DNA from: an uncultured Lachnospiraceae bacterium
GTDB lineage: Bacteria > Bacillota > Clostridia > Lachnospirales > Lachnospiraceae
Assembly: GCA_946491665.1 (NCBI GenBank)
Contig: CAMLYL010000001.1
Span: 1-64,000, forward strand
Direction: 5' to 3'
DNA length: 64,000 bases
Numbering within the stretch: the stretch's first letter is position 1; each line of letters starts with the position of its first letter. Shown here piece after piece: positions 1,993 through 34,370 of the stretch. The notes beneath the pieces were generated by a model. It was not told the origin of the DNA. It saw only the letters and a program-made list of their open reading frames with translations, and searched no databases. A program made the translations under genes and the position numbers.

Positions 1993-2066
1993 GCCTGCGG
2001 CGGACTGTCCGGACAGCAGCTCAGATTGTCCGGATATGCATTTATAATTATATGGAGATAACAGTT

Positions 2067-3203
2067 ATGACACGAGCACTTGTAATATTATGCGGAGGAC
2101 TCAGCACACGAATGGGCTGCGACAAGGCATTTCTGCCTTTTGGAGCCTCCTCTCTTTTAAATTATCAGATCACACGGTTCCGACCCTATTTTGACAAAAT
2201 CTATGTATCCGTTCCCGCCCATAATGAACGTCCTGTTGACTACACCGGACGTTTCGGCTGCCCGGCCGTCGAGGATGAATTTTCCAATCTGGGTCCCATC
2301 GGCGGTCTGTACAGCTGTCTGCGGGCAATTCCGGAAGATATCCTTTTTTTCACTTCCGTAGACGCGCCCTTTACGGATCCTTCTCTGGCTGTCACTCTGT
2401 GTGACCGTTTAAGCAACGCGGATGCCGGACACATCCGTACCTGTACCATTGAAAACCCTTCCGGACAGATCCAGCCGCTGTTTGCAGCTTACCGGAAAAG
2501 CTGTCTGCAGCGCATTACAGAGCTGATCCGTGAGCAAAAATACCGTCTCAAAGCGCTGTTTGATGAAGAGAGCTCTATCATTCATGATGGCTTTTTCCCG
2601 CCGGAACAGTTTTTCAATATGAACGATCCCACCAGTTACTATTACGCCCTGCACAAGCTGTCCAGGGAGACACCGGCAGCCTTCCCGCCGGATTTTGCAG
2701 TAAAGGCCGCCGGGAAAAAGATTCCCGTACTCTCCTTCACCGCAAAGTCCGGAACCGGCAAAACCACCTACCTTGAAAAACTTCTTCCGCTGTTGCGGCA
2801 GCACAACCTGAGAATCGCCGTAGTAAAGCACGATGCCCACGGTTTTGAAATCGACAAGCCCGGAAAGGACAGCTACCGTCTGACCCGGGCCGGAGCAGAA
2901 CATATGATCCTTACCTCTGAGCATCAGACTGCTGCTATTTTCACTCATCCGGGACTGAATCCCGATCTGGAAACGCTGCTGAACCGCATTGAAAATGTAG
3001 ATTTTATCATCACTGAGGGCTACAAACTGGGCACTCAGAAAAAGATCCATCTGCTGCGTAAAGGGTACAACGAAACGCCTGCTGGCAGCCTGGAAAACGT
3101 GATTGCCTATGTGGCGGACTTCCCCTTTCAGGCGGATGTACCTGTATTTGACCTGAATCACCCGGAACAGATTATCCCATTTCTGTTGGAATACATCGGG
3201 TAA
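2067..3203 (+). CDS. mobAB: MobA-MobB fusion (molybdenum cofactor guanylyltransferase + MobB P-loop domain)
   Basis: N-terminal LCGGLSTRMGCDKAFLPFG (MobA nucleotide site), C-terminal VLSFTAKSGTGKTTYLEKLLPLLRQHNLRIAVVKHDAHGFEID (MobB Walker A). Confidence 0.92.
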   Translation: MTRALVILCGGLSTRMGCDKAFLPFGASSLLNYQITRFRPYFDKIYVSVPAHNERPVDYTGRFGCPAVEDEFSNLGPIGGLYSCLRAIPEDILFFTSVDAPFTDPSLAVTLCDRLSNADAGHIRTCTIENPSGQIQPLFAAYRKSCLQRITELIREQKYRLKALFDEESSIIHDGFFPPEQFFNMNDPTSYYYALHKLSRETPAAFPPDFAVKAAGKKIPVLSFTAKSGTGKTTYLEKLLPLLRQHNLRIAVVKHDAHGFEIDKPGKDSYRLTRAGAEHMILTSEHQTAAIFTHPGLNPDLETLLNRIENVDFIITEGYKLGTQKKIHLLRKGYNETPAGSLENVIAYVADFPFQADVPVFDLNHPEQIIPFLLEYIG

Positions 3204-12523: not shown

Positions 12524-13348
12524 TTAGTTCATCTCGATATAGTCCAGATTCAGAGACTTGCCGGCAATCTCGATCTCGAGATCTTTTGTTTTTCCGGCTG
12601 CCTCGATGCTGATTGTGTATTTACCATCATCCAGACCATCAAACTTATAATCGCCGAAGAAATTCGTCTTCTGAACTTCTACAAGCTCTCCGTCTTTCTT
12701 AAGCTCTACAGTTGCATCCTCATAGCAGTCGCCGTCAACTAAAATACCGCCTGCTGCAAAGTTCTTTGTGAATCTGTACAGATTCTTATAGAACACATGA
12801 GGATTGGTACCAAGCTCCGGTCTGTAAACCTCCAGACCTTCTGTCTTGATCATAACTTCCATCTCTTCCGGCTCCATATGGTAAGCCTTTAAAGCCTTTG
12901 TGGGGCAGGAATGAGCACATCTCGGAATACCGGGAACCCAGTCAGGATCATCCAGCAGGTGTGCACACATAGTACATTTCTGCGGTTCGCAGGCTTCCTC
13001 GTTGTAATATACTGCTCCATAAGGACACATAGCTACTGCATCCTCTTTTCCCTTTGCAGCTGCCATATCGATCAGCACAATACCGTCTTCTCTTCTTGTA
13101 GCATATCCGGCATCAACAAGAGGACAGTTCTCACAATGCTGACAAGGCATAGGCAGATAAGAATAATCATTTCTGGCATATCTGCCGCGCTCTCTTCTCT
13201 GGATATTCATCCAGCGATGTCCATGGCGGGGCTGGGCGTTTGTATAGCCCGGCCACTCATTATCTACATGCTCATCTTTACATGACATAAAGCAGTTATT
13301 GCAGTCATGACACCATCTGACATCTATAACTAAATACCACTGTTTCAT
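12524..13348 (-). CDS. Pyrogallol-phloroglucinol transhydroxylase small (FeS) subunit with C-terminal Cna-B/transthyretin-like domain
   Basis: Multiple 4Fe-4S Cys motifs plus C-terminal YKFDGLDDGKYTISIEAAGKTKDLEIEIAGKS; adjacent to large subunit. Confidence 0.88.
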   Translation of the reverse strand: MKQWYLVIDVRWCHDCNNCFMSCKDEHVDNEWPGYTNAQPRHGHRWMNIQRRERGRYARNDYSYLPMPCQHCENCPLVDAGYATRREDGIVLIDMAAAKGKEDAVAMCPYGAVYYNEEACEPQKCTMCAHLLDDPDWVPGIPRCAHSCPTKALKAYHMEPEEMEVMIKTEGLEVYRPELGTNPHVFYKNLYRFTKNFAAGGILVDGDCYEDATVELKKDGELVEVQKTNFFGDYKFDGLDDGKYTISIEAAGKTKDLEIEIAGKSLNLDYIEMN

Positions 13349-13381
13349 TTCGATATCTCCTTTCTGACAACATCTGCGGAA

Positions 13382-15982
13382 TTAATAAATTTCGTAGATA
13401 CCGCCGTCCCATTTTTCTACTTCAATCTGAGCACTGTTGGGTGCCATACCGCATGCATACTTGGACATGTAACGATCCGGTGTAAGGATATTTACACAAC
13501 CGCCGCGGTCTGCGGAGTTACCCGGTTTTCCAAGAGGTGCGTACTCTGCACAGGACTCATAAGAATGAACCGTACCAGGCTGTACACGCTCACCAACCTG
13601 TGCGCAGAGGATTACGGAACCTCTGTCGTTGTAAGCACGAACCAGATCGCCGTCTTTGATTCCACGAGCCTCTGCATCAACGGTATTCATACGGATAATC
13701 CAGTAATACCATCCGTCTACCAGTACACGGTGATCCTTGATATCCATCATGAAGGAATCCTTTGCATCACCCATGGTATGCATGGAGAATCTGGGATGAG
13801 GAGAAAGCATACCCAGAGGGTATTTCTTTGCAACCTCAGCATGCCAGCTCTCCCAGGCCGGAACATACTTATGCATTGCAGGACGATACTCATCAACGAA
13901 GCCCTGCTCCTCAAAACGTTTCAGGGACGTGGAGATAAACTCAATCTTACCTGTGGTTGTCTGCAGACCCTTCAGACCTACTGTCTGGTTCGGAGCCGGA
14001 CCCCAGTCAGGTGTATCACGCTCACGATCCTCAGCGAACCAGCGAAGCGCAACTGTTTTCTTTCTGTTCGGATTATCCGGAACTACCAGGTAGCCCTTCT
14101 TGAAGAAGTCTTCCCAGCTCATCAGCTTCGGACAATCTGTTGCGTTATAATACTGTTCTACCCATTTCAGCTCATCCTTACCCTCAGTAAAGATATCGTA
14201 AATGCCAAGCTTCTCGGAAAGATAAGCATAAATCTCATAATCAGATTTAGACTCGCCAAGAGGCTCAATACATTTTGCCTGCAGGGAGATTACACGGTTG
14301 TTTGCCATCTGGAAGTTATCCGGAATATAACCGGAGCAGTTTGCAAACTCGGAGATATCCCATCTCTCGTAGTTGGTACATGCCGGAAGGATGATATCAG
14401 CAAACGGAACCTCGCCCTCCATCCAGATAGACTGGGAAATTACGCACTCCAGAGACTCTGTACGGTACATCTTTGCATATCTGTTGGTAGCAGTCATGGT
14501 ACCGATATGAGATCCGCCGTAATGCCAGTACATCTTAATGCTGCCGTAACCGGGAGCCGGATACTGATAGGGATGCATCTGAGTTTCAATTGTAGCTCCG
14601 CAGAATCCCTTGCCGTACCACTCGAACTTGCCGTTCATAATACACTCCGGAATCTTCAGACGGGGAATATGCTGACCTGCTTCCCAGTTCAGTTTTACAG
14701 GAGCCGGGAATGTAGTCTTGCCGTCGAACATTCTCCATGCAAACTTGAAGCCTGCTGCGGAGTTCGCTGTATCACCGGAGATACCGCCCTCTGCATAACC
14801 AGGGAAGTAGAACTCGTAGTCAGTGGGAACACCCTGAGTAGTTGACCAGATATTGGAACCGGGTTTACCCATTCCCTGCATGGTTGCAAGAGCGATCATA
14901 CCACGTGTCCACTCAATACCATGAGTTGCACGGCAGGCGCCGCCCCAGCCGCCCATACCGCCGGCTGCAAGGTATGTATTCTTCTTTGCCCACTCACGAG
15001 CCAGTGCACGAATCTCACATGCGGGAACGCCGGATTCTTTCTCTGCCCACTCACAGGTCTTCGGAATACCGTCCTCGCCGTTGCCAAGCACGTACTCTGC
15101 CCACTCTTCAAATCCATAAGCATGAGTCTTTACATATTCTTTATCGTAAGTTCCCTCTGTCAGCCATGTATATGCGATAGCGAAAGAAATCGCATGGTCT
15201 GTACCAACCTTGGGTGAGAACCATTTAATTCCCCACATATTTGCGGAATGGTTGAAGAAGGGATCGATGAATACCATCTTTACTCCCAGCTCATCCAGCC
15301 AGCGACGTCTGATATGGGACTCGTATGCAGCATAGATACCGCTGTTTACTTCCGGGTCAGAGGACCAGAATACGATCATCTCTGCATATTTCAGACCATC
15401 CTCTAACAGGTCATACTGCTCCGGACAGCCAAGTCTCCAGGAGAATCCCCACATATGCATACCGCCCCAGTGCCATCCTTCCCAGGAATCCGGGTTGTGA
15501 TCTGCATAAGTGAATCCCATCAGGTTCATAAAACGGAAGTATGTAGAATGACGATATCCTACATTACCCCATAAGTGGTGAGATGAAGGTGTGGACATGA
15601 TAGATGCCGGACCGCTCTCTCTCTTAATTCTGTTTACTTCGCTGACAACAAGATCTCTTGCCTCTTCCCAGCTGATTCTCTCATAGCCTGAAGTTCCCCG
15701 GTTCTGAACATTTCTCTCACCATTGGGATCCCAGTCTACACGTTTCATCGGGTAGAGGATACGACGATCAGAATAAATCATAGACTTCTGACCGGCAGTA
15801 AACGGTGCAATAGTCGTATATCTCGGTGCCTTGAATTCTCTGCCTCTAGCCTTAATTGTCCAGCCTTCCGGATCTGTCTCATCAAAATCCATCGGTGTAA
15901 TACGAACAATTTTGCCATCCTTTACATACACAAACACAGGACCGCCGGTGCTGGAATTAGTCAAACGAATTTCGCCTTCCAT
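13382..15982 (-). CDS. Pyrogallol-phloroglucinol transhydroxylase large (bis-MGD) subunit
   Basis: 866 aa from MEGEIRL (RBS GGAGG); SSHHLWGN and NPDSWEGW match the His and Asp-Ser-Trp active-site region recalled for Pelobacter acidigallici transhydroxylase. Confidence 0.88.
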   Translation of the reverse strand: MEGEIRLTNSSTGGPVFVYVKDGKIVRITPMDFDETDPEGWTIKARGREFKAPRYTTIAPFTAGQKSMIYSDRRILYPMKRVDWDPNGERNVQNRGTSGYERISWEEARDLVVSEVNRIKRESGPASIMSTPSSHHLWGNVGYRHSTYFRFMNLMGFTYADHNPDSWEGWHWGGMHMWGFSWRLGCPEQYDLLEDGLKYAEMIVFWSSDPEVNSGIYAAYESHIRRRWLDELGVKMVFIDPFFNHSANMWGIKWFSPKVGTDHAISFAIAYTWLTEGTYDKEYVKTHAYGFEEWAEYVLGNGEDGIPKTCEWAEKESGVPACEIRALAREWAKKNTYLAAGGMGGWGGACRATHGIEWTRGMIALATMQGMGKPGSNIWSTTQGVPTDYEFYFPGYAEGGISGDTANSAAGFKFAWRMFDGKTTFPAPVKLNWEAGQHIPRLKIPECIMNGKFEWYGKGFCGATIETQMHPYQYPAPGYGSIKMYWHYGGSHIGTMTATNRYAKMYRTESLECVISQSIWMEGEVPFADIILPACTNYERWDISEFANCSGYIPDNFQMANNRVISLQAKCIEPLGESKSDYEIYAYLSEKLGIYDIFTEGKDELKWVEQYYNATDCPKLMSWEDFFKKGYLVVPDNPNRKKTVALRWFAEDRERDTPDWGPAPNQTVGLKGLQTTTGKIEFISTSLKRFEEQGFVDEYRPAMHKYVPAWESWHAEVAKKYPLGMLSPHPRFSMHTMGDAKDSFMMDIKDHRVLVDGWYYWIIRMNTVDAEARGIKDGDLVRAYNDRGSVILCAQVGERVQPGTVHSYESCAEYAPLGKPGNSADRGGCVNILTPDRYMSKYACGMAPNSAQIEVEKWDGGIYEIY

Positions 15983-16139
15983 GTGATAAACCTCCTTAAT
16001 TAATAAATTGTAATCAACTTTTCGCTCCATGGTTTTCATACGGGATGCGGTCGTGAGTAGAGGATGGTTGCTCCCACACCCATATGAAAACCATGAACAT
16101 CCTGAGAGGGAAACATCTCATTTCCCTTTCTGTGACTGC

Positions 16140-19534: not shown

Positions 19535-19969
19535 TCATTCCTCCAGAGTAATTGAATCCCCCACATGAATAATCCCCCCATGAAGCACTCTGGTAAACAC
19601 ACCCTCTCTGGGCATAATACAATCCCCAACTGCCTTGTGGATTTCACAGTGACTGTGACATTTCTTTCCGATCTGAGTCAGCTCCAGCACAACTTCATCC
19701 CCAATCATAAACTTTGTTCCGAGAGGAAGCGCTTTCAGCTGATAGCCCTCTACCACAATATTCTCACCAAAAGCTCCAAAATCCACATCCGCACCCCGGG
19801 AACGAAAATTCTCTATTTCGGAATAGTCCAGAAGACTTACCTGGCGATGCCAGTCTCCCGCATGGGCATCGCCCTCAATGCCCCAGTTTTCTTTCAGTGT
19901 CACCGCCGGAACCTCATGCTTCTGGATCCCCCTGATCTTGCTGATACATATTCCCTTTACCTGTCCCAT
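19535..19969 (-). CDS. MOSC domain protein
   Basis: WGIEGDAHAG, FGENIVVEG, C(H)SHCEIHKAVGDCIMPREGVFTRVLHGG. Confidence 0.88.
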   Translation of the reverse strand: MGQVKGICISKIRGIQKHEVPAVTLKENWGIEGDAHAGDWHRQVSLLDYSEIENFRSRGADVDFGAFGENIVVEGYQLKALPLGTKFMIGDEVVLELTQIGKKCHSHCEIHKAVGDCIMPREGVFTRVLHGGIIHVGDSITLEE

Positions 19970-20008
19970 ATTCCGTCACTCCTTCTTTCTGTGATACATC
20001 ATCTCCGG

Positions 20009-21010
20009 TCATCCGCCAATGGAAACCATCCTGTGTTCTTCGGAAACATTTTTCAGTGTATCAAAACAATGTGCCGCCGGTTTTGCGAAGATTGCCCTTT
20101 CCATCATTTCCCGGATCTCCTGATCTGTTCCGCCGCTTCGGAGAGCCTGCTGCAAATCATAGGTTTCCGCATAACACAGACAGGGCTTTATCTTTCCTGT
20201 TGCGCTGAGGCGGATTCGATTGCAGTTATGGCAGAACTTCCCGTGCATGGCAAGAATCAGACCCACGCTTCCGGCAAATCCCGGAATCTGATAATATACC
20301 GCGGGACCGCTGCCGTGAACTGCAGGATCATTCTGCAGTCCGGGAAACATTCTCTGCAGCGAAGAAAGAACCTCTTCACCGGTCACATGGTAATACTGTT
20401 TGCCCTCGCCGATAGGCATCAGTTCAATAAACCGCAGATCTACCGGGAGCTTCTCCGCCAGGGAAAGCATCTCCCGCCAGTCCACCACGCAGTCTTCAAA
20501 AAAATCACGGGGCAGCAAAACCGTATTCACTTTTACCTTCAGTCCCGCATCCAGAGCCGCCCGGATATTGTCCATTACTTTCGGAAGCGCATCGAATCTG
20601 GTAATTTTCTGAAAGAGTTCCCTGTTCAGAGTATCCAGACTGATATTCACTCCGTCAAGTCCGCTGTCTGTCAGCTCCGGCAGATATTTGTCCAGCAAAA
20701 TACCGTTGGTCGTCATTGTGACGCTCTCAATCCCCGGAATACGGCGGATCATAGCCACCAGCTTCGGGATATCTGCCCTGACCAGCGGTTCCCCTCCGGT
20801 CAGACGTATCTTTCTGATTCCCAGATCCACTCCAATCCGACAGACTCTGGCAATCTCCTCATAAGTCAGAAGCTCCGGCATGGGAATTGTCTGAATCCCC
20901 TCCTCCGGCATACAGTATCTGCAGCGAAGATTGCAGCGGTCTGTAACCGATATTCTCATGTAGTCTATTTCACGATCAAAACTGTCTCTCATATATATCT
21001 CTTTTCCCAA
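20009..21010 (-). CDS. moaA: GTP 3',8-cyclase MoaA
   Basis: Radical SAM CNLRCRYCMPEEG, LTGGEPLVR, C-terminal GG. Confidence 0.95.
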   Translation of the reverse strand: MGKEIYMRDSFDREIDYMRISVTDRCNLRCRYCMPEEGIQTIPMPELLTYEEIARVCRIGVDLGIRKIRLTGGEPLVRADIPKLVAMIRRIPGIESVTMTTNGILLDKYLPELTDSGLDGVNISLDTLNRELFQKITRFDALPKVMDNIRAALDAGLKVKVNTVLLPRDFFEDCVVDWREMLSLAEKLPVDLRFIELMPIGEGKQYYHVTGEEVLSSLQRMFPGLQNDPAVHGSGPAVYYQIPGFAGSVGLILAMHGKFCHNCNRIRLSATGKIKPCLCYAETYDLQQALRSGGTDQEIREMMERAIFAKPAAHCFDTLKNVSEEHRMVSIGG

Positions 21011-21019
21011 TGTATTTTT

Positions 21020-22219
21020 TCAGAGACGGTACACCTGAACCGTCTCGCCGGCCATAGCTCCGGCCATATCCGGTCTGATCTCAACCAGACAGTTGCATTC
21101 CACCATGGAAGCAATTGCTCCCGATGACTGCATCTTTCCGTTTATATAAACCTTTCCGTTTTCCAGGCAGCCTCTCAAAAACCTCCTGGCTCCCGCCGGT
21201 TTCCTGAAGTCATTCTGCAGAACCGCATTTTCCATGGGAAGCAGCCAGTCCTTCTGTCCCGTCAGTGCAGCAAGTACAGGACGCGCCAGAAGTTCAAAGT
21301 TCGCAATGGCGCCAAAAGGATTTCCCGACAAACATAAAACCAGCGTTCCTTCACAGACGAAGGCCAGGGTAGGAGATCCCGGCTTGATCCGTACTTTCCA
21401 GAACAACTGTTCCGCATCCAGAAGCTTCACTACATCATGCAGAATATCCTTTTCTCCCACAGAAACTCCTCCTGTGGTAATCACAAAATCCGCCTGCTGC
21501 GCGGCCTTCCGAATTTCATCTGCCACTTTACGGGCCTCGTCAGCTGCATGCATGGAAATTACGGGAGGATTTCCCGCCTCCGTCAGCCGGGCACAGATAT
21601 AGGCGCGGTTAGAATCATAGATCTTTCCCGGGCTCCAGGGCTGTCCGGGCACAAGCACCTCATCACCGGTGGAAATTACAGCAACCGAGGGCTTTCTGTA
21701 CACAACGGCCTCTGTCTTTCCCAGAGAAGACAACACCGTAATCTTTCCGGCATCCAGCCGGCTGTCCTTCGGCAGCAGAACTGTTCCCGCCTTATAATCC
21801 TCTCCCTGAAAACAGTAATTCTGATAGGGCTCTGAGGAAACATATATCTGTACTGTGTCATTCTCTGCAAAGGTGTCTTCCTGCCGGATAATCGCATCTG
21901 CTCCCTCTGGAATCGGAGCGCCCGTCATCAGCCTTACCGCCTGTCCTTCACCCACAATGCCATCGAACACATAACCTGCATAAATCCTTCCAATCACATG
22001 CAGAACCGCAGGATTTTCCTTCGACGCACCGGCCACATCCGCCGCGCGCACCGCATAACCGTCCAACGGGGATCGGGGGAACGGCGGCTGATCCCTCTCT
22101 GCTGTCACATCCTCCGCCAGTACTCTGCCAAGGGCGTCTGCCAGCGGAACCCGTTCCGTCTGTTCAATCTTCCGGACCTGTTCTGTCAGCATCGCCTGTG
22201 CTTCTTCAATCTGTAACAT
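21020..22219 (-). CDS. moeA: Molybdopterin molybdenumtransferase MoeA
   Basis: PLDGYAVRAADV, VISTGDEV, TTGGVSVGEKD, CLSGNPFGA. Confidence 0.94.
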   Translation of the reverse strand: MLQIEEAQAMLTEQVRKIEQTERVPLADALGRVLAEDVTAERDQPPFPRSPLDGYAVRAADVAGASKENPAVLHVIGRIYAGYVFDGIVGEGQAVRLMTGAPIPEGADAIIRQEDTFAENDTVQIYVSSEPYQNYCFQGEDYKAGTVLLPKDSRLDAGKITVLSSLGKTEAVVYRKPSVAVISTGDEVLVPGQPWSPGKIYDSNRAYICARLTEAGNPPVISMHAADEARKVADEIRKAAQQADFVITTGGVSVGEKDILHDVVKLLDAEQLFWKVRIKPGSPTLAFVCEGTLVLCLSGNPFGAIANFELLARPVLAALTGQKDWLLPMENAVLQNDFRKPAGARRFLRGCLENGKVYINGKMQSSGAIASMVECNCLVEIRPDMAGAMAGETVQVYRL

Positions 22220-24548: not shown

Positions 24549-25340
24549 TCAGTCAAACATATCCTTCGCCTGAGAGTAGTTAAATACCGGTCCCTCCAGG
24601 CACACATATGTATCATTGATTCTGCAGTGGCCGCACTTTCCGACGCCGCAGCACATTTTCCGCTCAAAGGATACCCAGATCTTATCCTCTGTGGCTCCGT
24701 TTTTCAGACATTCCATCGCCGCAAAATGCATCATTACCGGCGGCCCCACGATAACAATATTATAATCGTCAAAATCCCGGATGGGCACTTTTCCGATATG
24801 AGCGGTAACCATTCCGGTCTCAAAACCTTCCCGCTCCTCATTGTCCAGCGTCGTAATTACATGAAACCGCTGAGCAAACTTCTTCGCCTCATCGCGGAAC
24901 AGCACCGCGTCGTAATTCTTAAAACCGGAAATGAGATACAGGGATCTGCATACCTCCGGATGATCATAGAAATGATTGATCATCGTCATAACCGGCGCCA
25001 TACCGGTACCGCCGCAGATAATCAGAAGATCCTTGTTCTCAAACTGCTTCACCGGGAATGAATTGCCGTAGGGTCCCCGCAGGAATATAGAGTTTCCCGG
25101 CTCCAGATCGAAAATCGCCTGGGTCAGCAGTCCCACATTCCGGATCGTGAATTCCACATATCCGGGCCCTTTTCCACTGGCAGAAATCGGCGCTTCACCG
25201 ACTTTGGGCAGAGACAGCATGAAAAACTGTCCATATGCCGGATCATTTTCACAGGCCACGCGGAAGGTACATTCGGTGGCTGTATGCTTTAACATACTTA
25301 AAATCCTGTGTGGTTTGGGAACTAATACATTATTTTCCAT
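24549..25340 (-). CDS. AsrB-like FAD/NAD(P)H ferredoxin reductase subunit
   Basis: LRGPYGNSFPV, ICGGTGMAPV, C-terminal MCCGVGKCGHCRINDTYVCLEGPVF (2Fe-2S type). Confidence 0.9.
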   Translation of the reverse strand: MENNVLVPKPHRILSMLKHTATECTFRVACENDPAYGQFFMLSLPKVGEAPISASGKGPGYVEFTIRNVGLLTQAIFDLEPGNSIFLRGPYGNSFPVKQFENKDLLIICGGTGMAPVMTMINHFYDHPEVCRSLYLISGFKNYDAVLFRDEAKKFAQRFHVITTLDNEEREGFETGMVTAHIGKVPIRDFDDYNIVIVGPPVMMHFAAMECLKNGATEDKIWVSFERKMCCGVGKCGHCRINDTYVCLEGPVFNYSQAKDMFD

Positions 25341-25349
25341 AGCTTCCTC

Positions 25350-27086
25350 CTATTCTTCTGCCGCTGCAGACGCATTTTTCAGCTTCTGCGCCTCTTCCGT
25401 CAGCCGGTTAATGGTGTCGGCAAAGGAAATGTCCTCCGGGCAGCGCTGCATACATCTTCCGCAGCCCACGCACATATGCTCGTTTCCGCCAAACCGTTTA
25501 TTATAATCATATACCTTGTGCAGTGTTTTATAGCGCATCATCTGTCTCGGGAACTTCCGCGCAATATTTCCTCCTGCCGTTTTTGAAAAGTCCGGAATCA
25601 TACAGGAAGACCAGAGACGACGGCGCTCTCCCTTTCTGCTGTTCTCCTGATTCAGGAAATCCACGGTCTCAAAACAGCTGCAGGTGGGGCAGACGGTATT
25701 GCATCCTCCGCAGGAGATGCACTTATCATCATAATCCTTCCACATATCCAGATCAGCGATCTGGCGGAGCATGGCGCTGTCCGTAATTTCCGGAACCGTA
25801 ACCTTTCTTTCATTTTCCATAATAAACTGCGGCTCATACTCACAGGTCTTCGCCCAGTCGAAATATTCCGCGAACTCCGCATCTTTGATTTTCAGCAGAA
25901 TCTCATTGCCGCTCAGTCTGCAGGCTACACTGTAATAATCCGCTTTATTTGTTTTCATGGATACGCAGAAACAATTATCCCAGCTCTGCTCACACTCCAT
26001 CATAAAAATCTTCACCCGGCTCCGGTTCCGGCTGTAATAAGTATCCGCCACACCTCCGTTTGCCAGGAACATATTATCCAGACGCTTCAGACCGTTGACA
26101 TCACAGGGACGCGCAAAAATAATGATTCCTTTCGGATCTGAGGATACACTCTCCCGGCAGGTATCTTCATCAAATTTGAAGATGGGCTGAGATACCGGAA
26201 AAATGACCTCCTTGGGAGAGAAGTCTGACTGTCGGTCTGTAACAATCTCCTCCAGCGAACTGATCTCCTGATAACGGATCAGACCATCTGTCTCCCACCG
26301 TCCACGGTCCGGCCGGTGAACCGGCGCATAAATGCGATACTCATTCTTCAGCTTCCGCAGGGTTCGGTTCATCAGTTCTCTGCTGATCCGGCAGCTTCTG
26401 GAATAGGCAGTCCCGGACTTTCTGTCCACAATCATCCGGTCCAGAATAAAACTGTCAAGCTGCAGGAATCCCGTAGTCAGCTGACCTACCATACGATAAA
26501 ATTCCGTATCCGCACATTCCTTGATTTTCAGACAGAACTCCGGCGCCCAGTTTAACAGATGTGTGTTCAGAAACGCCTTCTGCTCCTCCAGTCCGGTCAG
26601 AGTTTCTGTATACTCGCTGGTCTCATCACAGAGATAAGCCATATACTCCATCTCCATGGAGATATGATCCTCCAGCCAGTCTCCAGCTTCATCATTCCGC
26701 TCTATGCCTTTCGCCTCGTAGATCTCACAGACCTGGCTCCAGGCATCCTGCATCATAATGTGCTTCGGACTGGTATAAACTGACTCATAAGGGAAAGCAG
26801 CGTCCCCCTGAGCAACGCCTGCGCCCAGGAAGGTCTTTGCATAATCCGCCGCCAGATCCTCCAGACTCTCTCCTGCATCATACTCGAAATATTCATTGAG
26901 ACGGATCAGAGCATCCTGGAATTCTGTCAGCGCATTTTCTTCCCGGTCCGCCGGGAATTCAATATGTTTTAACTGCTCAAAAAACTCTTCATCAATTTCC
27001 GACGCGAAAAATCTGGCAAAAAACTGATAGAGATCGCGTCTGTTTTTCATCAGTCTCTGAAAGTCTGTTTTATTAGATATGCTCAT
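25350..27086 (-). CDS. TorD/DmsD-like chaperone domain fused to AsrA-like 4Fe-4S domain
   Basis: N-terminal ~200 aa TorD-like (RRDLYQFFARFF...DYAKTFLGAGVAQGDAAFPYESVYTSP...EMEYMAYL); C-terminal CISCGGCNTVCPTCSC and CVGCGRCMQRCPEDIS. Confidence 0.82.
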   Translation of the reverse strand: MSISNKTDFQRLMKNRRDLYQFFARFFASEIDEEFFEQLKHIEFPADREENALTEFQDALIRLNEYFEYDAGESLEDLAADYAKTFLGAGVAQGDAAFPYESVYTSPKHIMMQDAWSQVCEIYEAKGIERNDEAGDWLEDHISMEMEYMAYLCDETSEYTETLTGLEEQKAFLNTHLLNWAPEFCLKIKECADTEFYRMVGQLTTGFLQLDSFILDRMIVDRKSGTAYSRSCRISRELMNRTLRKLKNEYRIYAPVHRPDRGRWETDGLIRYQEISSLEEIVTDRQSDFSPKEVIFPVSQPIFKFDEDTCRESVSSDPKGIIIFARPCDVNGLKRLDNMFLANGGVADTYYSRNRSRVKIFMMECEQSWDNCFCVSMKTNKADYYSVACRLSGNEILLKIKDAEFAEYFDWAKTCEYEPQFIMENERKVTVPEITDSAMLRQIADLDMWKDYDDKCISCGGCNTVCPTCSCFETVDFLNQENSRKGERRRLWSSCMIPDFSKTAGGNIARKFPRQMMRYKTLHKVYDYNKRFGGNEHMCVGCGRCMQRCPEDISFADTINRLTEEAQKLKNASAAAEE

Positions 27087-27708
27087 AGTATCTGCCTCCC
27101 CGTCCAAAAGAAACCTCATCCAGTTCCGGCGGAAGAATATCCTGCCACTGGGCGTTTTTCAGTATATACCGGGTAGAAGGACCGTTTCCGAAATCTCTCA
27201 GACGGTATACATTTTCCTCTCCCGCTTCCCGAAGCAGTCTGGAAACCTCGCTGCCCGGATCGTTGATATCTCCATAATGAAGCGCTTTTCCGGAACAGTT
27301 TTTCACGCAGGCCGGATCCTCGCCCTCCTCACGGAGCTGAGCGCAGATGGTGCATTTGTCCATGGCCCGCTGCGTCTCGCTGAATGTGTTGGCATGGTAG
27401 GGACATTCTTTATTGCAGCTGTGGCAGCCGATACATTTCTTCGTCTCAATACGGACCACACCGTCTTCTTTGCTTTTATATACGGCTCCGGAAGGGCAGA
27501 CCCGTACGCAGACCGGATTCTCACACTGCTGACACATCGTAGGAAGAAAATACATCTGCAGATCCGGATAGGTTCCGAAAGGTCCAACCGCACGTACTTT
27601 CGTCCGGTCAGATCCCAGAGTCGTTCCGTTTTCCATTTTGCAGGCCACCTGACATCCCTTGCATCCGATGCAGCGGTCCAGCTCTATTACAAATGCGTAC
27701 TGTTTCAT
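27073..27708 (-). CDS. DmsB/NrfC-like four-cluster ferredoxin subunit
   Basis: MKQYAFVIELDRCIGCKGCQVACKME...CQQCENPVCVRVCPSGA...CIGCHSCNKECPYHA...CTICAQLREEGEDPACVKNC. Confidence 0.93.
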   Translation of the reverse strand: MKQYAFVIELDRCIGCKGCQVACKMENGTTLGSDRTKVRAVGPFGTYPDLQMYFLPTMCQQCENPVCVRVCPSGAVYKSKEDGVVRIETKKCIGCHSCNKECPYHANTFSETQRAMDKCTICAQLREEGEDPACVKNCSGKALHYGDINDPGSEVSRLLREAGEENVYRLRDFGNGPSTRYILKNAQWQDILPPELDEVSFGRGGRYYEHI

Positions 27709-30383
27709 AATGCCACCTCCTCTGTAGGATCGCTGGGCTGTGCCAGCCACTGAGTGAAATCATGGGGATTCTGCCAGATTCCTTCCGGCGCCTCCTCTGC
27801 CGGATATACTTTCACCAGGAACGCCCGCAGAGTATAAGTTCCAACCACATCATTAAAAGGAGCATCCGCTTTGGTCAGTACATTCACATTTGTCTCCATC
27901 CAGCCGTGGGTCTTTGTTCCAAGAGTTTCCGGATTCCAGAACCGCTCCATATAAACCACGCCCGGCTTGATTCCCTGCGTCACAGAGACAACCGCCCGGA
28001 TTCTTCCGCGCTTTGACTCCACCCAGGCCCAGCTTCCATCTTCAAGACCATATTTTTCCGCATCATCCGGGAACATCCACAGCTCCGGCACCGGATAAAT
28101 CTCGCGCAGCCAGGGCACATTCCTCAGAGTATTATGATGGAAGAACGGAACACGTCCATTTGTCATAACCAGCGGATATTCTTTCGCCAGCCCTTCCGTA
28201 TCTCTGGGGCTTTCCGCCGGCTCCAGATAATAGGGCAGCGGCTCATAATCTTTCGATGCGGGAGGGAGCTCACATTTTGCAAAAGGCTGTCCGGTACGTC
28301 CCAGAGTAATCATACTCTCCAGATAAATCTCACATTTTTTCGAAGGTGTCGCAAATCCCTGGGGCAGATTCGTCTTCGGGTCTTTCTTCTTATATACATA
28401 GTACTCCTTCCACTCTTCCTTCGGCATATAAGTGTAAGGCGTAATTTCCTTCAGAGTCTCAAAGTCCAGCCCTACACGGGACAGGAAATGATCCCACAGA
28501 TCCGTCACCTTATCCCAGTAGGGGAGATCCTTGCCCATGTACTCCGCGTCAAAAGCTTTGGCACAATCCTCGTCGCCCAGCTCGCCGCAGCGCTTCGCGA
28601 TCTTCGCCCAGATCAGAGTTTCATCCATGGTCTCCCACAGATGGGTCACCTGCTGTCTGGCGCAGAGCGTGTTACATGTCTCCACAATCATGTCAGTTTC
28701 CAGCCATTCCTCCGTGGGAAGCAGGATATCCGCATAAGCTGAAAAAGAAGTGGGATACATATACATATGTACGATAAAATCCAGCTCGTCAATCACCCGC
28801 TTTACCTTCTGGCTGTCAGCCACCGCCGCCATCTTATTTCCGGAACGGTCAATCCATACTCTGGGCTTATAAGGCTTCCCGGTCAGAACCGCATCCATAA
28901 TACTGGTGATATGGCCGGCATACCAGATATGCAGACCCTTGTGTTCAATACCTCCCAGCCGTTTCTTCAGCTGCTCATCCGGAAGCTTATCTGCAGCAAT
29001 GGGAACCGGATAGTTCGGCATATCAAACACCCCGCTGGTCTTAAACCGCTGAAGAAGCGCGCCGGGACGCTCCACATTTCCCATCAGCAGATCCAGTGTG
29101 GCGGTACTCATGGCTGCCTGAACTGAGTTCGGCGTCTGGTCCGTGCTGACGCCGATGGCAATACCGCTGGGCGTCTGCTCCGCATACAGACGGATTGCTT
29201 TCTCAATCTGTTTCGGATCCAGCTCACAGATCTCAGCCGCATACTCCAGTGTATACTGCTCTGCCTGTTCCCACAGAAGCTGGAAACCTGTTTTGTAGGT
29301 CTTTCCTTCATATATATATGTACCCTGCAGAGCCGGCTGGAGCTGATCATCCCAGGGATACTCCATGGGCTTCGGCTGACCGGTCAGTTCATCCCATACC
29401 ACAAAGGTATCCGGAATATCCGGATCTTCGCTGATCTGATCCCGCCAGAACATCTTTGTCTCCGCGTCAACCAGATACGGCAGATTCGTCCATTTCATCA
29501 CAAACTCTTCATCGTAGAGTTTTTCTTCCATAATAAAGCGGATCCATGCAAGCATCAGCGCCACATCCGTACCCGGACGAATCGGAAGCCAGACATCCGC
29601 CTTCGCAGCATCCGGAGTCATACGGGGATCAATCACTACCGTTTTCACACCGTTTGCACGCAGATCCACCACTGCTCCGCCGCCGCTGGCCGGACAGGAG
29701 TAGGAAGGATCTGTTCCCCACAAAACAAGAGTTTTTATGGGAGTATCTTCCGTATCATAAATCTCGAGAGAATTGGAATCTGCAATACTGGGATCTACGC
29801 CGCCGTACATCATGGTATAAGCCAGCACACGGGGCAGATAGCACTGAGCGCAACCGGGCTCAAACCAGTTGGGCGTGCCGAAAATATTACAGAAACGGGC
29901 GATACTCCAGATCTCCGGATTCCCGCCTCCTCCGGTAGAACAGAACACAGTCTCCGCACCATACTTCTGTTTTGTCTCTACTAATTTATGTGCAATGATA
30001 TCAATCGCCTTTTCCCAGGAAATCCGGCGCCACTTATTGGCTCCCCGTTTTCCCACCCGCATCATTGGATACTTGTTCCGATTGGGATGGTACAGAGCCT
30101 GAATGCCGGAAAGTCCCTTTGCGCACATCCTGCCTTTGCTCATACGGTCCTCCGGATTGCCTTCCAGCTTGATCACCCGGCCGTTTTTCACGGTAGCGAT
30201 CACACCGCAGTTGGCAATGCAGGCCCGGCAGCAGGTCTTTACCCGGCGGATCTCATCTTCCGTTGTCTTATTCTCCTGTTTCGCTTTCCGGAACATTCGG
30301 GTATTTCCGGTGGCAAAACGCAGCCCCCTTACACTGGTGGCCGCCAGGAAGTCCATACTGGAAATTTCTATTTTCTCTCCCAT
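27705..30383 (-). CDS. bis-MGD molybdopterin oxidoreductase catalytic subunit (DMSO reductase superfamily)
   Basis: CCRACIANCGVIATVKNGRVIKLEGNPEDRMSKGRMCAKG; WFEPGCAQCYLPRV; ATPSKKCEIYLES; RBS GGAGGG before ATG at 30383. Confidence 0.93.
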   Translation of the reverse strand: MGEKIEISSMDFLAATSVRGLRFATGNTRMFRKAKQENKTTEDEIRRVKTCCRACIANCGVIATVKNGRVIKLEGNPEDRMSKGRMCAKGLSGIQALYHPNRNKYPMMRVGKRGANKWRRISWEKAIDIIAHKLVETKQKYGAETVFCSTGGGGNPEIWSIARFCNIFGTPNWFEPGCAQCYLPRVLAYTMMYGGVDPSIADSNSLEIYDTEDTPIKTLVLWGTDPSYSCPASGGGAVVDLRANGVKTVVIDPRMTPDAAKADVWLPIRPGTDVALMLAWIRFIMEEKLYDEEFVMKWTNLPYLVDAETKMFWRDQISEDPDIPDTFVVWDELTGQPKPMEYPWDDQLQPALQGTYIYEGKTYKTGFQLLWEQAEQYTLEYAAEICELDPKQIEKAIRLYAEQTPSGIAIGVSTDQTPNSVQAAMSTATLDLLMGNVERPGALLQRFKTSGVFDMPNYPVPIAADKLPDEQLKKRLGGIEHKGLHIWYAGHITSIMDAVLTGKPYKPRVWIDRSGNKMAAVADSQKVKRVIDELDFIVHMYMYPTSFSAYADILLPTEEWLETDMIVETCNTLCARQQVTHLWETMDETLIWAKIAKRCGELGDEDCAKAFDAEYMGKDLPYWDKVTDLWDHFLSRVGLDFETLKEITPYTYMPKEEWKEYYVYKKKDPKTNLPQGFATPSKKCEIYLESMITLGRTGQPFAKCELPPASKDYEPLPYYLEPAESPRDTEGLAKEYPLVMTNGRVPFFHHNTLRNVPWLREIYPVPELWMFPDDAEKYGLEDGSWAWVESKRGRIRAVVSVTQGIKPGVVYMERFWNPETLGTKTHGWMETNVNVLTKADAPFNDVVGTYTLRAFLVKVYPAEEAPEGIWQNPHDFTQWLAQPSDPTEEVAL

Positions 30384-30632
30384 ATTATCCCTCCACAGCC
30401 TTTGTTTCATGGTATACATCGATGAACATTTTTGGTATACCACTTGTATCTGACTTTGATTATATGCCTGCATATGCAAATAGTCAAGACATTTTCAATT
30501 TCTTTTTTACACTATCTTTTTTATTTTTCTTTGTCTAAACTGCTCATAAAACAAAAAAGTCAAGTATAATCTTTTTCTTTTGTTTATAAAATATAAACAA
30601 AAAAAATATTAAAAAATTGTGAAAAAATACAT

Positions 30633-30662: not shown

Positions 30663-30698
30663 CTAAAGCTATAAATTTTTATGAAGGAGGGAAAGGAT

Positions 30699-32168
30699 AT
30701 GAACAAAGTAGAAGATTTACGTTCTGCCATTGAATTGATCAAATCGATTCCGGGCGAGTATGTCGAGACCGATGTGGAAGTTGATCCGAAAGCGGAACTT
30801 TCCGGTGTATACCGCTACGTAGGAGCTGGCGGAACAGTAATGAGACCTACAAAAATCGGACCTGCCATGGTGTTCAACAATATTAAGGGACATCCCGGCG
30901 CAAGGGTAATCACCGGTATACTGGCAAGCAGAAAGAGGGTTGCTGCTCTGCTGGATACTACTCCGGAAAAGCTGGGCTTTTTCCTGCGTGACGCGGTACA
31001 GAACCCGATTGATCCGATTGACTTCACAGGAGATAAGGTTCCCTGTCAGGAAGTCGTACATCTGGCAACGGAGGAGGGCTTCGACATCCGCAAGCTGGTG
31101 CCGGCTCCCACCAACACTCCGGAAGATGCCGGCCCGTACATTACTATGGGTCTGGCTTACGGCAGCGATCCCGAGACAGGCATCTCAGACGTTACCATTC
31201 ACAGATTCTGTCTCCAGAGCGAGAATGAGCTTTCCATGTGGATTACTCCCGGCGCAAGACATCTGGGTGTTTTCTATGAAAAATATGAGAAGCTTAACAA
31301 ACCCATGCCGATTTCCATCAGCATCGGATTGGATCCGGCTGTTTATCTGGCATCCGGCTTTGAGCCGCCCACAACACCGCTTGGATACAACGAGCTGGCC
31401 TGCGCGGGGGCAATCCGCCAGAAACCGGTAGAGCTCTGCAACTGTATTACTATCGGCGAAAAGGCTATTGCCAATGCAGAATATGTAATTGAAGGTGAGC
31501 TTATGCCTCACGAGCGTGTACCGGAGGATCGCTCCACCGGAACAGGAAAGGCTATGCCGGAATTCCCCGGACAGACCGGTCCCGCTCCCATGGTTCCCAT
31601 TATTAAGGTAAAAGCTGTGACACACAGAATGAACCCGATTATGCAGACTACCATCGGACCTTCCGAGGAGCACGTACATATGGCCGGACTTCCCACAGAG
31701 GCAAGTATTATCAACATGGTTGAGACTGCTATGCCGGGACGTCTGATGAATGTATACGCACATCCTTCAGGAGGCGGAAAATACATGGCTATCATTCAGT
31801 TCAAGAAGAGCATGCCCAGTGATGAGGGACGTCAGCGTCAGGCTGCGCTGCTTGCTTTCTCCGCATTCAGCGAGTTAAAGCATGTAATTCTGGTGGATGA
31901 AGATGTTGATCCGTTTGACAGCAACGATGTTTTATGGGCATTAAACACCCGTTATCAGGGAGATATTGATACTGTCATGATCCCCGGCGTGAGATGCCAT
32001 CCGCTGGATCACACACAGGAAACTGCTTACAATCCCATGATCCGCGACAATGGTATTTCCTGCAAGACGATCTTCGACTGTACGATGCCCTTCTCTCAGA
32101 AGAAGCATTTTGAGAGATCACAGTTCCTGGAGGTTGATCCCAAGCATTGGCTTCCGGATATGTTCTAA
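30699..32168 (+). CDS. UbiD-family prenyl-FMN decarboxylase, gallate/protocatechuate (LpdC) type
   Basis: MRPTKIGPAMVFNNIKGHPGARVITGI, ISIGLDPAVYLAS, VPEDRSTGTGKAMPEFPG; RBS AGGAGGG. Confidence 0.9.
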   Translation: MNKVEDLRSAIELIKSIPGEYVETDVEVDPKAELSGVYRYVGAGGTVMRPTKIGPAMVFNNIKGHPGARVITGILASRKRVAALLDTTPEKLGFFLRDAVQNPIDPIDFTGDKVPCQEVVHLATEEGFDIRKLVPAPTNTPEDAGPYITMGLAYGSDPETGISDVTIHRFCLQSENELSMWITPGARHLGVFYEKYEKLNKPMPISISIGLDPAVYLASGFEPPTTPLGYNELACAGAIRQKPVELCNCITIGEKAIANAEYVIEGELMPHERVPEDRSTGTGKAMPEFPGQTGPAPMVPIIKVKAVTHRMNPIMQTTIGPSEEHVHMAGLPTEASIINMVETAMPGRLMNVYAHPSGGGKYMAIIQFKKSMPSDEGRQRQAALLAFSAFSELKHVILVDEDVDPFDSNDVLWALNTRYQGDIDTVMIPGVRCHPLDHTQETAYNPMIRDNGISCKTIFDCTMPFSQKKHFERSQFLEVDPKHWLPDMF

Positions 32169-32211
32169 AAACAAATATGCTTTATAAAGAAAGATAAAAG
32201 AGGAAGATGAG

Positions 32212-33651
32212 ATGAAAGTTTTCAAAAAAGAATACATCCATTATCTGATCGCCCTGATTATCGGTATTGTCATCGCAGTTGCGCTGAAACCGGGTAACGG
32301 GCTGACAGATATCGGTGTTCGTGTAGTTGCCATTATGATTCCGTGTCTGTATCTGTGGCTGACAACAAACACGCACTGGACCAGTTTGCTGGCATTAGGA
32401 CTCCTGGTTATGACACAGGCTATGACGGCCAACGAAGTATGGGCGAACTCCCTTGGACACTTCGTAGTAATTACCGTTCTCTGCTACATGATTCTGAACG
32501 TGTGTCTGAAAGAGACCGGTGTAATCGATAAAATAGCCATATGGTTTGTAACCCGTAAATTCGTACAGGGCAAGCCCTATGCATTTATGGCAATGTTCTT
32601 CGCATCCAACGTAATCATCGGTATGTTCGTAGATAACCTGTCTCTGGCAATTATCTACATCGGACTTACTGAAGTTCTGTGTAAGCAGCTCGGACTGAAG
32701 AAGGGCGATTCTTTCTACACCTGTATGTTCACCGGCGTTATGTTCGGCAACGTACTGCTGTCCATCTGTTCTCCGATCGCGCATGCACTGCCGAACATCA
32801 TCATGGCATCCTGTGAGTCTGTATTCGGTATTACCATTACATACGCACAGTGGCTGGCAGTCGGTGTTCCTTATGCAGCAGTTATGTATGTTGTAATTAT
32901 GCTGATTGTTCTGATCTGGCGTCCTGACACCTCTGCATTCAAGAACTACGATGTAGAGAAAGTAAAAGCAGAGCAGGAGCCTCTGAGCAGAGAAGGTAAG
33001 ATTTCCGCCGCTACATTTATCGTTGTTGTGTTCTTCGTACTGGCGCCTTCACTGCTGAGCAATGTATCCGCATTCTTCTCTTACATGAACAGCATCGGTG
33101 TTGTTATCCCGGCTATTCTGGGTATCGTGTTCCTGGCTCTGATCCGTTCCAACGGCAAAGCAGTCCTGAATGTTCCGGCAGCTATGAAACAGGTTCCGTG
33201 GCCGCCCCTGCTCTTCGCAGGTACCGTGTCCTGCTTCGCAGTGCCGCTGTCTGCAGAGTCCACCGGTATTAATGTATGGCTTGGCAACGTTCTGCAGCCC
33301 GTCATTGGTGATCTTCCGCAGTTCGGAATCATCGCGGTTCTGTTCCTGCTGGCCATCATCATGACAAACTTCCTGTCCAACACAGTTACCATGGTACTGT
33401 TCTTCAATATTGGTGCCGTACTGCTGTCCATTGATCAGGTAAATATGGCTGCATTTACAATCATGGTTTCTATCGCATCCGGTATGGCTGCTGTAACGCC
33501 GTCCGCAGCGGTTCCTTCACCGCTGTTCTTCGGTCCTGGCCATGTAACGATGAAGACTACAGTAAAATATACAACTATATTCGTTGTAATTTCCTTCTTC
33601 ATCTGCCTGCTGTTCATGCCGATTGCAACCAAAATGCTTGGCGGAGTATAA
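32212..33651 (+). CDS. SLC13/DASS-like anion permease
   Basis: ~12 TM segments; NFLSNTVTMVLFFNIGAVL and MAAVTPSAAVPSPLFFG; directly downstream of UbiD. Confidence 0.78.
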   Translation: MKVFKKEYIHYLIALIIGIVIAVALKPGNGLTDIGVRVVAIMIPCLYLWLTTNTHWTSLLALGLLVMTQAMTANEVWANSLGHFVVITVLCYMILNVCLKETGVIDKIAIWFVTRKFVQGKPYAFMAMFFASNVIIGMFVDNLSLAIIYIGLTEVLCKQLGLKKGDSFYTCMFTGVMFGNVLLSICSPIAHALPNIIMASCESVFGITITYAQWLAVGVPYAAVMYVVIMLIVLIWRPDTSAFKNYDVEKVKAEQEPLSREGKISAATFIVVVFFVLAPSLLSNVSAFFSYMNSIGVVIPAILGIVFLALIRSNGKAVLNVPAAMKQVPWPPLLFAGTVSCFAVPLSAESTGINVWLGNVLQPVIGDLPQFGIIAVLFLLAIIMTNFLSNTVTMVLFFNIGAVLLSIDQVNMAAFTIMVSIASGMAAVTPSAAVPSPLFFGPGHVTMKTTVKYTTIFVVISFFICLLFMPIATKMLGGV

Positions 33652-33727
33652 GACAGATTGTTTCAGGGATTTTTTCAACTCCCCACAATATAGTTCCGAA
33701 AGCCCCAGCGGTTTTCGGAACACCATA

Positions 33728-33764
33728 AAAGGAGCCTGCCCACAGGGGCAAGCTCCTTTTTCAT
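33728..33764. terminator. Stem-loop AAAAGGAGCCTGCCC-acag-GGGCAAGCTCCTTTTT
   Basis: Bidirectional terminator between convergent genes. Confidence 0.85.
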
Positions 33765-33812
33765 AACCATTTTTACAATACAGATCAGAACATCTTTTCA
33801 TGCTCTGCGCTT

Positions 33813-34370
33813 TCAGGACCATCTGCGGAATTTTTTTGACTCGATTCCATAAATATCAAGCACCTTCGCTGCAATATGCTCCACCATCTGCTGAATATTC
33901 TCCGGCCGATTATAAAAGGTCAGCATGGGAGGAAGAATAATCGCTCCCATCTGGGACAGTTCCATCATATTCCGCAGGTGAATCGTGTGAAGGGGCGTCT
34001 CCCTTGCCACAAGCACCAGTTTTCTACGCTCCTTCAGCGTCACATCCGCCGCCCGCAGCAGCAGATTATCCGAATACCCGCTGTGAATTCCCGCCACAGT
34101 CTTCATACTGCAGGGAACCACCACCATTCCCTCCGTCTTAAACGTTCCGCTGGCAATAGACGCTCCGATATCATGAAGATCATAGACATGATCCGCCATA
34201 TCCAGAATCTGTTTCGAAGTATACTCTGATTCCAGCTCAATCGTACGCCTTGCTCCATCGGTAACTACAAGGCAGCTTTCCCAGTCCGGGCATTCTTTCA
34301 GTGTCTGCAGAATCTCCACCGCAATCGGTACACCGCTTGCTCCGCTCATTCCAATTACTAATCGTTTCAT
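33813..34370 (-). CDS. ubiX: Flavin prenyltransferase (UbiX/LpdB)
   Basis: GMSGASGVPIAVEIL, VVVPCSMKTVAGIHSGYSDNLLLRAADVTLKERRKLVLVARETPL. Confidence 0.95.
   Translation of the reverse strand: MKRLVIGMSGASGVPIAVEILQTLKECPDWESCLVVTDGARRTIELESEYTSKQILDMADHVYDLHDIGASIASGTFKTEGMVVVPCSMKTVAGIHSGYSDNLLLRAADVTLKERRKLVLVARETPLHTIHLRNMMELSQMGAIILPPMLTFYNRPENIQQMVEHIAAKVLDIYGIESKKFRRWS

Follow-up and report, generated by a model that had tools for sequence, protein, structure and literature searches.

We found that a single open reading frame at positions 25350 to 27086 (minus strand) joins a TorD/NarJ-family chaperone domain to an AsrA-type electron-transfer protein, within an operon for a bis-MGD-type molybdoenzyme. 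The frame lies in the window, by which we mean the whole 64,000-nucleotide stretch of Lachnospiraceae DNA analysed here. On balance, we favour the view that this is a stable TorD-AsrA fusion that arose once and that belongs to a cytosolic, NAD(P)H-linked molybdoenzyme of gut Clostridia carrying pyrogallol transhydroxylase. The operon and the parts of the fusion are as follows.

24549..25340, minus strand: AsrB, FAD/NAD(P)-binding electron-input subunit, 263 aa (TIGR02911, 327 bits, cut-off 289)
25350..27086, minus strand: TorD-AsrA fusion gene, 578 aa, single open frame (ATG at 27084-27086, TAG at 25350-25352)
26436..27086, minus strand: TorD/NarJ-family chaperone domain, residues 1-217 (PF02613, aligned ends of separate TorD proteins, YcdY fold)
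26400..26435, minus strand: linker, about residues 218-229 (alignment of fused and separate proteins; relaxed dN/dS)
25353..26399, minus strand: AsrA domain, residues 230-578 (TIGR02910 over cut-off; fold match to the P. furiosus SHI beta subunit)
25674..25721, minus strand: first 4Fe-4S cysteine motif region, residues 456-471 (homologue alignment)
25440..25472, minus strand: second 4Fe-4S cysteine motif, residues 539-549 (homologue alignment)
27073..27708, minus strand: PsrB/DmsB-like subunit with four 4Fe-4S motifs, 211 aa (PF13247)
27705..30383, minus strand: bis-MGD-type molybdoenzyme catalytic subunit (PF00384, PF01568, PF04879)

The sequence-only reading had taken the N-terminus for a TorD-like chaperone and the remainder for an AsrA-like protein with two 4Fe-4S motifs. 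Both assignments were borne out, the first at family level. The TorD half matched Pfam PF02613 (residues 53-185, E 4.3e-29, 101.7 bits against a gathering score of 22.2) and the NCBIfam TorD model (residues 13-212, E 1.2e-26). It scored under the equivalog cut-offs of both TorD (NF003442, 93.9 vs 132) and DmsD (NF008632, 35.7 vs 162), and is therefore called TorD at family level only. The AsrA half reached 389.7 bits with TIGR02910 over residues 232-567, against a curated equivalog cut-off of 323.15, and residues 455-553 matched the 4Fe-4S dicluster domain PF17179. Its cysteine motifs, C456-x2-C459-x2-C462-x3-C466 and C539-x2-C542-x2-C545-x3-C549, were invariant in an alignment of seven fused homologues. 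An AlphaFold2 model of the fusion (mean pLDDT 79) contained a helical domain at residues 6-224 and an alpha/beta AsrA fold at residues 230-578. In a comparison with PDB structures, the AsrA half matched 9nez_B, the SHI beta subunit of P. furiosus (E 2.4e-19). The match for the TorD half was the maturation chaperone YcdY (9m26, E 5e-3, probability 1.00, TM 0.70 by target).

When aligned to the fusion, the separate TorD proteins of relatives stop at about residue 217 and the separate AsrA proteins (MGYYVS...) start at about residue 228. By this comparison the join is clean, both partners being present without substantial loss and with about 12 residues between them. The domains are a chaperone at about residues 1-217, a short linker and AsrA at about residues 230-578. 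The fusion start at 27086 was favoured by homologues; an in-frame ATG at 27119 falls within the preceding gene. Near the TorD/AsrA junction, the only ATG codons are 218 and 239, and as judged by eye neither is preceded by a clear ribosome-binding site, so a single polypeptide is expected.

The same architecture was found in other genomes. The single open frame is shared by 14 species-level genomes, namely the window genome, six others of its genus and seven more. The seven beyond the genus include a roe-deer rectum assembly, assemblies labelled Roseburia and Flavonifractor, and Eubacterium oxidoreducens DSM 3217, the type strain of a cultured gallate degrader. No more fusions turned up among 392 genomes sampled from the order and 399 from the phylum, samples that leave room for rarer cases elsewhere; among the matches listed in these searches, all but the window's own spanned essentially one half. 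We regard the fusion as almost certainly real. The assembly is a draft and relatives have two genes, but an assembly or sequencing error joining them has a negligible probability and is ruled out by independent genomes with the same open frame, one of them a cultured type strain, and by purifying selection acting on the TorD and AsrA halves alike.

Twelve genomes, nine from the same genus and three from other families of the class, have separate, adjacent torD and asrA genes in unchanged operon order. In two of these (G008 and G019) the genes overlap by 17 bp. We constructed a maximum-likelihood tree with a midpoint root from the Mo, Fe-S and AsrB subunits, including 13 fused operons. The fused operons formed one group (ultrafast bootstrap 99), with Epulopiscium adjoining it and the separate-gene operons outside. 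From this branching, the simplest history is a single fusion between neighbouring genes. In Epulopiscium the Mo, Fe-S and stand-alone TorD genes are intact and AsrA and AsrB are reduced to remnants, so its ancestor may have been either fused or unfused. The short AsrA remnant and an AsrB C-terminal remnant lie after the intact stand-alone TorD gene (L057 5811-5990). Median dN/dS among the fused genes was 0.05 for TorD, 0.085 for AsrA and 0.22 for the linker, values that are rough because many pairs were synonymously saturated and were dropped. By this measure both halves are under strong purifying selection.

The genes for the Mo subunit, the four-cluster Fe-S subunit, TorD-AsrA and AsrB overlap or almost touch, and the 3' end of the Fe-S subunit gene overlaps the fusion gene by 14 bp. 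The Mo subunit is 892 aa long from the homologue-supported ATG and 924 aa from a TTG at 30479. At its N-terminus, a stretch resembling MDFLAATxVxGL is conserved across the fused group. In relatives the order is molybdoenzyme, 4Fe-4S protein, TorD, AsrA and AsrB, and is kept in fused and unfused operons; some unfused operons (L025, L027 and L028) have two tandem asrB-like genes after asrA. Beyond the operon, the gene neighbourhood was not conserved. No membrane span was found in the four operon proteins and no Tat motif, the Mo subunit being without a twin-arginine signal, and the complex is therefore taken as cytosolic.

We then searched for AsrC. No protein over the AsrC cut-off was found in the window genome, which is 84% complete (best score 36.8 bits vs 324), and of the 19 other genus members, 18 likewise had none. 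The sole AsrC over the cut-off in the genus lies at G007:C3:1462-2415, just after an unfused second AsrA fragment at a contig end (G007:C3:2-613). A canonical anaerobic sulfite reductase that has gained a chaperone would agree with AsrA and AsrB each exceeding their equivalog cut-offs, but AsrC was not found and the operon has a Mo subunit, and this very improbable reading was rejected. Given the missing AsrC, AsrAB most likely serves the Mo enzyme as its NAD(P)H-linked electron module, the direction of electron flow being a prediction. We consider a cytosolic, NAD(P)H-linked Mo complex likely.

We propose that electrons would pass from NAD(P)H to AsrB (FAD, Fe-S), then to the AsrA half with its two 4Fe-4S clusters, the four-cluster Fe-S subunit and finally the Mo subunit. 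The TorD half would bind the apo Mo subunit, perhaps through the conserved N-terminal stretch, and would aid cofactor insertion in the cytosol. A partnership with the 924-aa subunit had been suggested from the sequence, and it gains support from the conserved gene order and from the fused TorD being the sole member of its family (PF02613) detected in the window genome at 84% completeness. Transhydroxylases are also Mo enzymes, and this genome encodes two. Since another genome (G005) has transhydroxylases and no detected TorD, the operon's own Mo subunit is the probable client of the chaperone. We judge that the TorD half probably does function as a chaperone.

The tether would give one chaperone per electron-input subunit and would hold that subunit next to the enzyme to which it docks. 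It could turn the hand-over from chaperone to electron port into an intramolecular step, or could merely fix the ratio of the two proteins. The latter corresponds to a neutral fusion of translationally coupled genes that fixes 1:1 production, with the halves acting independently as in relatives, and we see this as a serious possibility, if somewhat short of probable. It agrees with the separate adjacent genes of 12 genomes, two of them with the 17-bp overlap, and with there having been one fusion event only. The fused state is nevertheless present in 14 species-level genomes with no reversal seen; this is compatible with neutrality without being a prediction of it. A genuine coupling of maturation to electron delivery, as the sequence-only reading had proposed, is possible by analogy with NarJ and is not the default. 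NarJ binds the N-terminus of the cytosolic nitrate reductase catalytic subunit and a second site on the core; it allows cofactor insertion and holds off membrane anchoring to NarI, the electron-input subunit, until that step is complete (PMC10609526). The analogy makes coupling reasonable, yet 12 relatives manage without the fusion.

The TorD half could instead have lost its chaperone role and act as a permanent structural part through which AsrA docks to the Mo subunit, which we consider unlikely. Being covalently tethered, the TorD half could not leave with AsrA docked, as this reading would predict. However, TorD is the more conserved half (dN/dS as above) and the only family member detected in its genome, and Epulopiscium retains a stand-alone TorD despite the decay of AsrA and AsrB.

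We analyzed the distribution of pyrogallol transhydroxylase, a key enzyme in the degradation of pyrogallol and hence of tannins, and found it in 14 of 14 fused genomes and in 0 of 12 unfused genomes. Within the genus, it was present in 7 of 7 fused genomes and in 1 of 13 others (Fisher p 1e-4, a value that shared ancestry makes too generous). In the window, the minus strand at 12524-16039 encodes the large subunit of pyrogallol hydroxytransferase (885 aa, PF21423) and, after it, the Fe-S small subunit. Another paralogue of the large subunit, with 63% identity, is found at G000:C110:5641-8244, and two or three such paralogues are present in most fused genomes. This co-occurrence is the strongest functional clue and suggests a role of the operon in gallate/pyrogallol metabolism, which we hold to be reasonably probable, the co-occurrence being confounded by shared ancestry. 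The operon is adjoined (window 30681-34370) by genes for hydroxyarylic acid decarboxylase proteins of UbiD- and UbiX-like type, together with a gene for a DASS anion transporter. The UbiD/UbiX-like genes are a possible candidate gallate decarboxylase; these neighbours recur in the closest relative only and were given little weight. An apparent phloroglucinol cluster beside the roe-deer operon proved to consist of butyrate genes (thiolase, 3HCDH, acyl-CoA dehydrogenase and EtfBA). E. oxidoreducens degrades phloroglucinol and requires an external electron donor, H2 or formate (PMC10470551).

That requirement made formate dehydrogenase an attractive candidate for the Mo subunit, which scored 242 bits against a family cut-off of 666 and reads CYLPR in the ligand region; formate dehydrogenase was rejected. 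In formate dehydrogenases, the Cys/Sec metal ligand is followed by His. The solved structures nearest to the Mo subunit were acetylene hydratase and then the reductase 2vpw; our AlphaFold2 model of this subunit was poor (pLDDT 51) and was left out. Acetylene hydratase has a catalytic Asp13 after the second Cys of its Fe-S motif. This residue is missing in the Mo subunit, where CRACI aligns with CQSCD of the hydratase, and acetylene hydratase was likewise rejected. Catechol dehydroxylases are also described as nearest to acetylene hydratase (PMC7028382). As both share this neighbour, a hydroxyphenol reductase is a fair first guess, and the Mo subunit may catalyse reductive dehydroxylation of a polyhydroxyphenol.

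Two further readings were considered. The operon could encode a dedicated gallate/pyrogallol enzyme with its built-in chaperone as a docking gate, TorD keeping hold of the apo Mo subunit and the tethered AsrA docking as electron port only once the cofactor is inserted, and running toward NAD(P)+ it could even supply 1,2,3,5-tetrahydroxybenzene; we find this rather unlikely. Slightly less probable still is the reverse direction in general, in which a phenol is hydroxylated with water at the Mo subunit and the electrons go through AsrAB to NAD(P)+, for example to make tetrahydroxybenzene for the transhydroxylase. The transhydroxylase requires 1,2,3,5-tetrahydroxybenzene as co-substrate (PMC13039779) and strictly co-occurs with the fusion. 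However, G005 has transhydroxylases without the operon or any detected AsrA relative, and in the literature used, the closest relatives of known activity comprise a hydratase and reductases.

Other unusual frames were found in the window. A 383-aa frame at 2052-3203 (plus strand) combines MobA-like and MobB domains and is a second fusion, of molybdenum cofactor biosynthesis. Elsewhere, MoeA and a domain matching the window's MobA-MobB protein occur in one frame of 611-646 aa (L026 12139-13989, L033 2800-4635 and L034 420-2360). A 520-aa frame at 19565-21127 (plus strand) had no Pfam match, and its counterpart at L016 13816-15421 is split into two frames.

We compared the operon with known systems. 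The TorD half shares family, helical fold and a molybdoenzyme operon setting with the NarJ/TorD proteins (PF02613: NarJ, TorD, DmsD and YcdY), and its presumed client, like NarG for NarJ, is without a Tat signal. Unlike those proteins, it is covalently joined to an electron-transfer subunit. NarX of mycobacteria includes a NarJ part. As a fused-domain nitrate reductase it is a precedent for fused nitrate-reductase parts (PMC7759655); it joins nitrate reductase parts and, unlike TorD-AsrA, has no NAD(P)H-linked AsrA. With AsrABC the operon has AsrA and AsrB in common at equivalog level, whereas a molybdoenzyme and a 4Fe-4S subunit replace AsrC and AsrA has an N-terminal TorD. The beta-gamma module of the P. 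furiosus sulfhydrogenase/SHI (9nez, 9nf0) likewise joins NAD(P)H to a metal-enzyme core through an AsrA-type fold, the core being a hydrogenase there and a molybdoenzyme here. According to the excerpts available (PMC7028382, PMC11887054), the catechol dehydroxylases Dadh, Hcdh, Cadh and Dodh have a bis-MGD subunit near acetylene hydratase and an Fe-S subunit, as in the operon, and dadh has a TorD-like chaperone gene, DadhF. The same excerpts describe a predicted signal peptide and membrane partners for Dadh and two cytoplasmic subunits for Dodh, and for these two mention neither AsrAB nor a fused chaperone. Among the papers searched, none joined AsrA, TorD, molybdopterin and fusion. The operon is a variation on known parts and does not amount to a new type of system.

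Chaperones dedicated to molybdoenzymes are described as accessories that stay outside the final enzyme. With a conserved natural tether between a chaperone and an electron-input subunit, one could test directly whether release of the chaperone and docking of the electron port are coupled, as has been put forward for NarJ. The fusion is also the marker of a molybdoenzyme, uncharacterised and probably linked to NAD(P)H, which accompanies pyrogallol transhydroxylase in every fused genome examined, and the cultured E. oxidoreducens makes the proposal testable.
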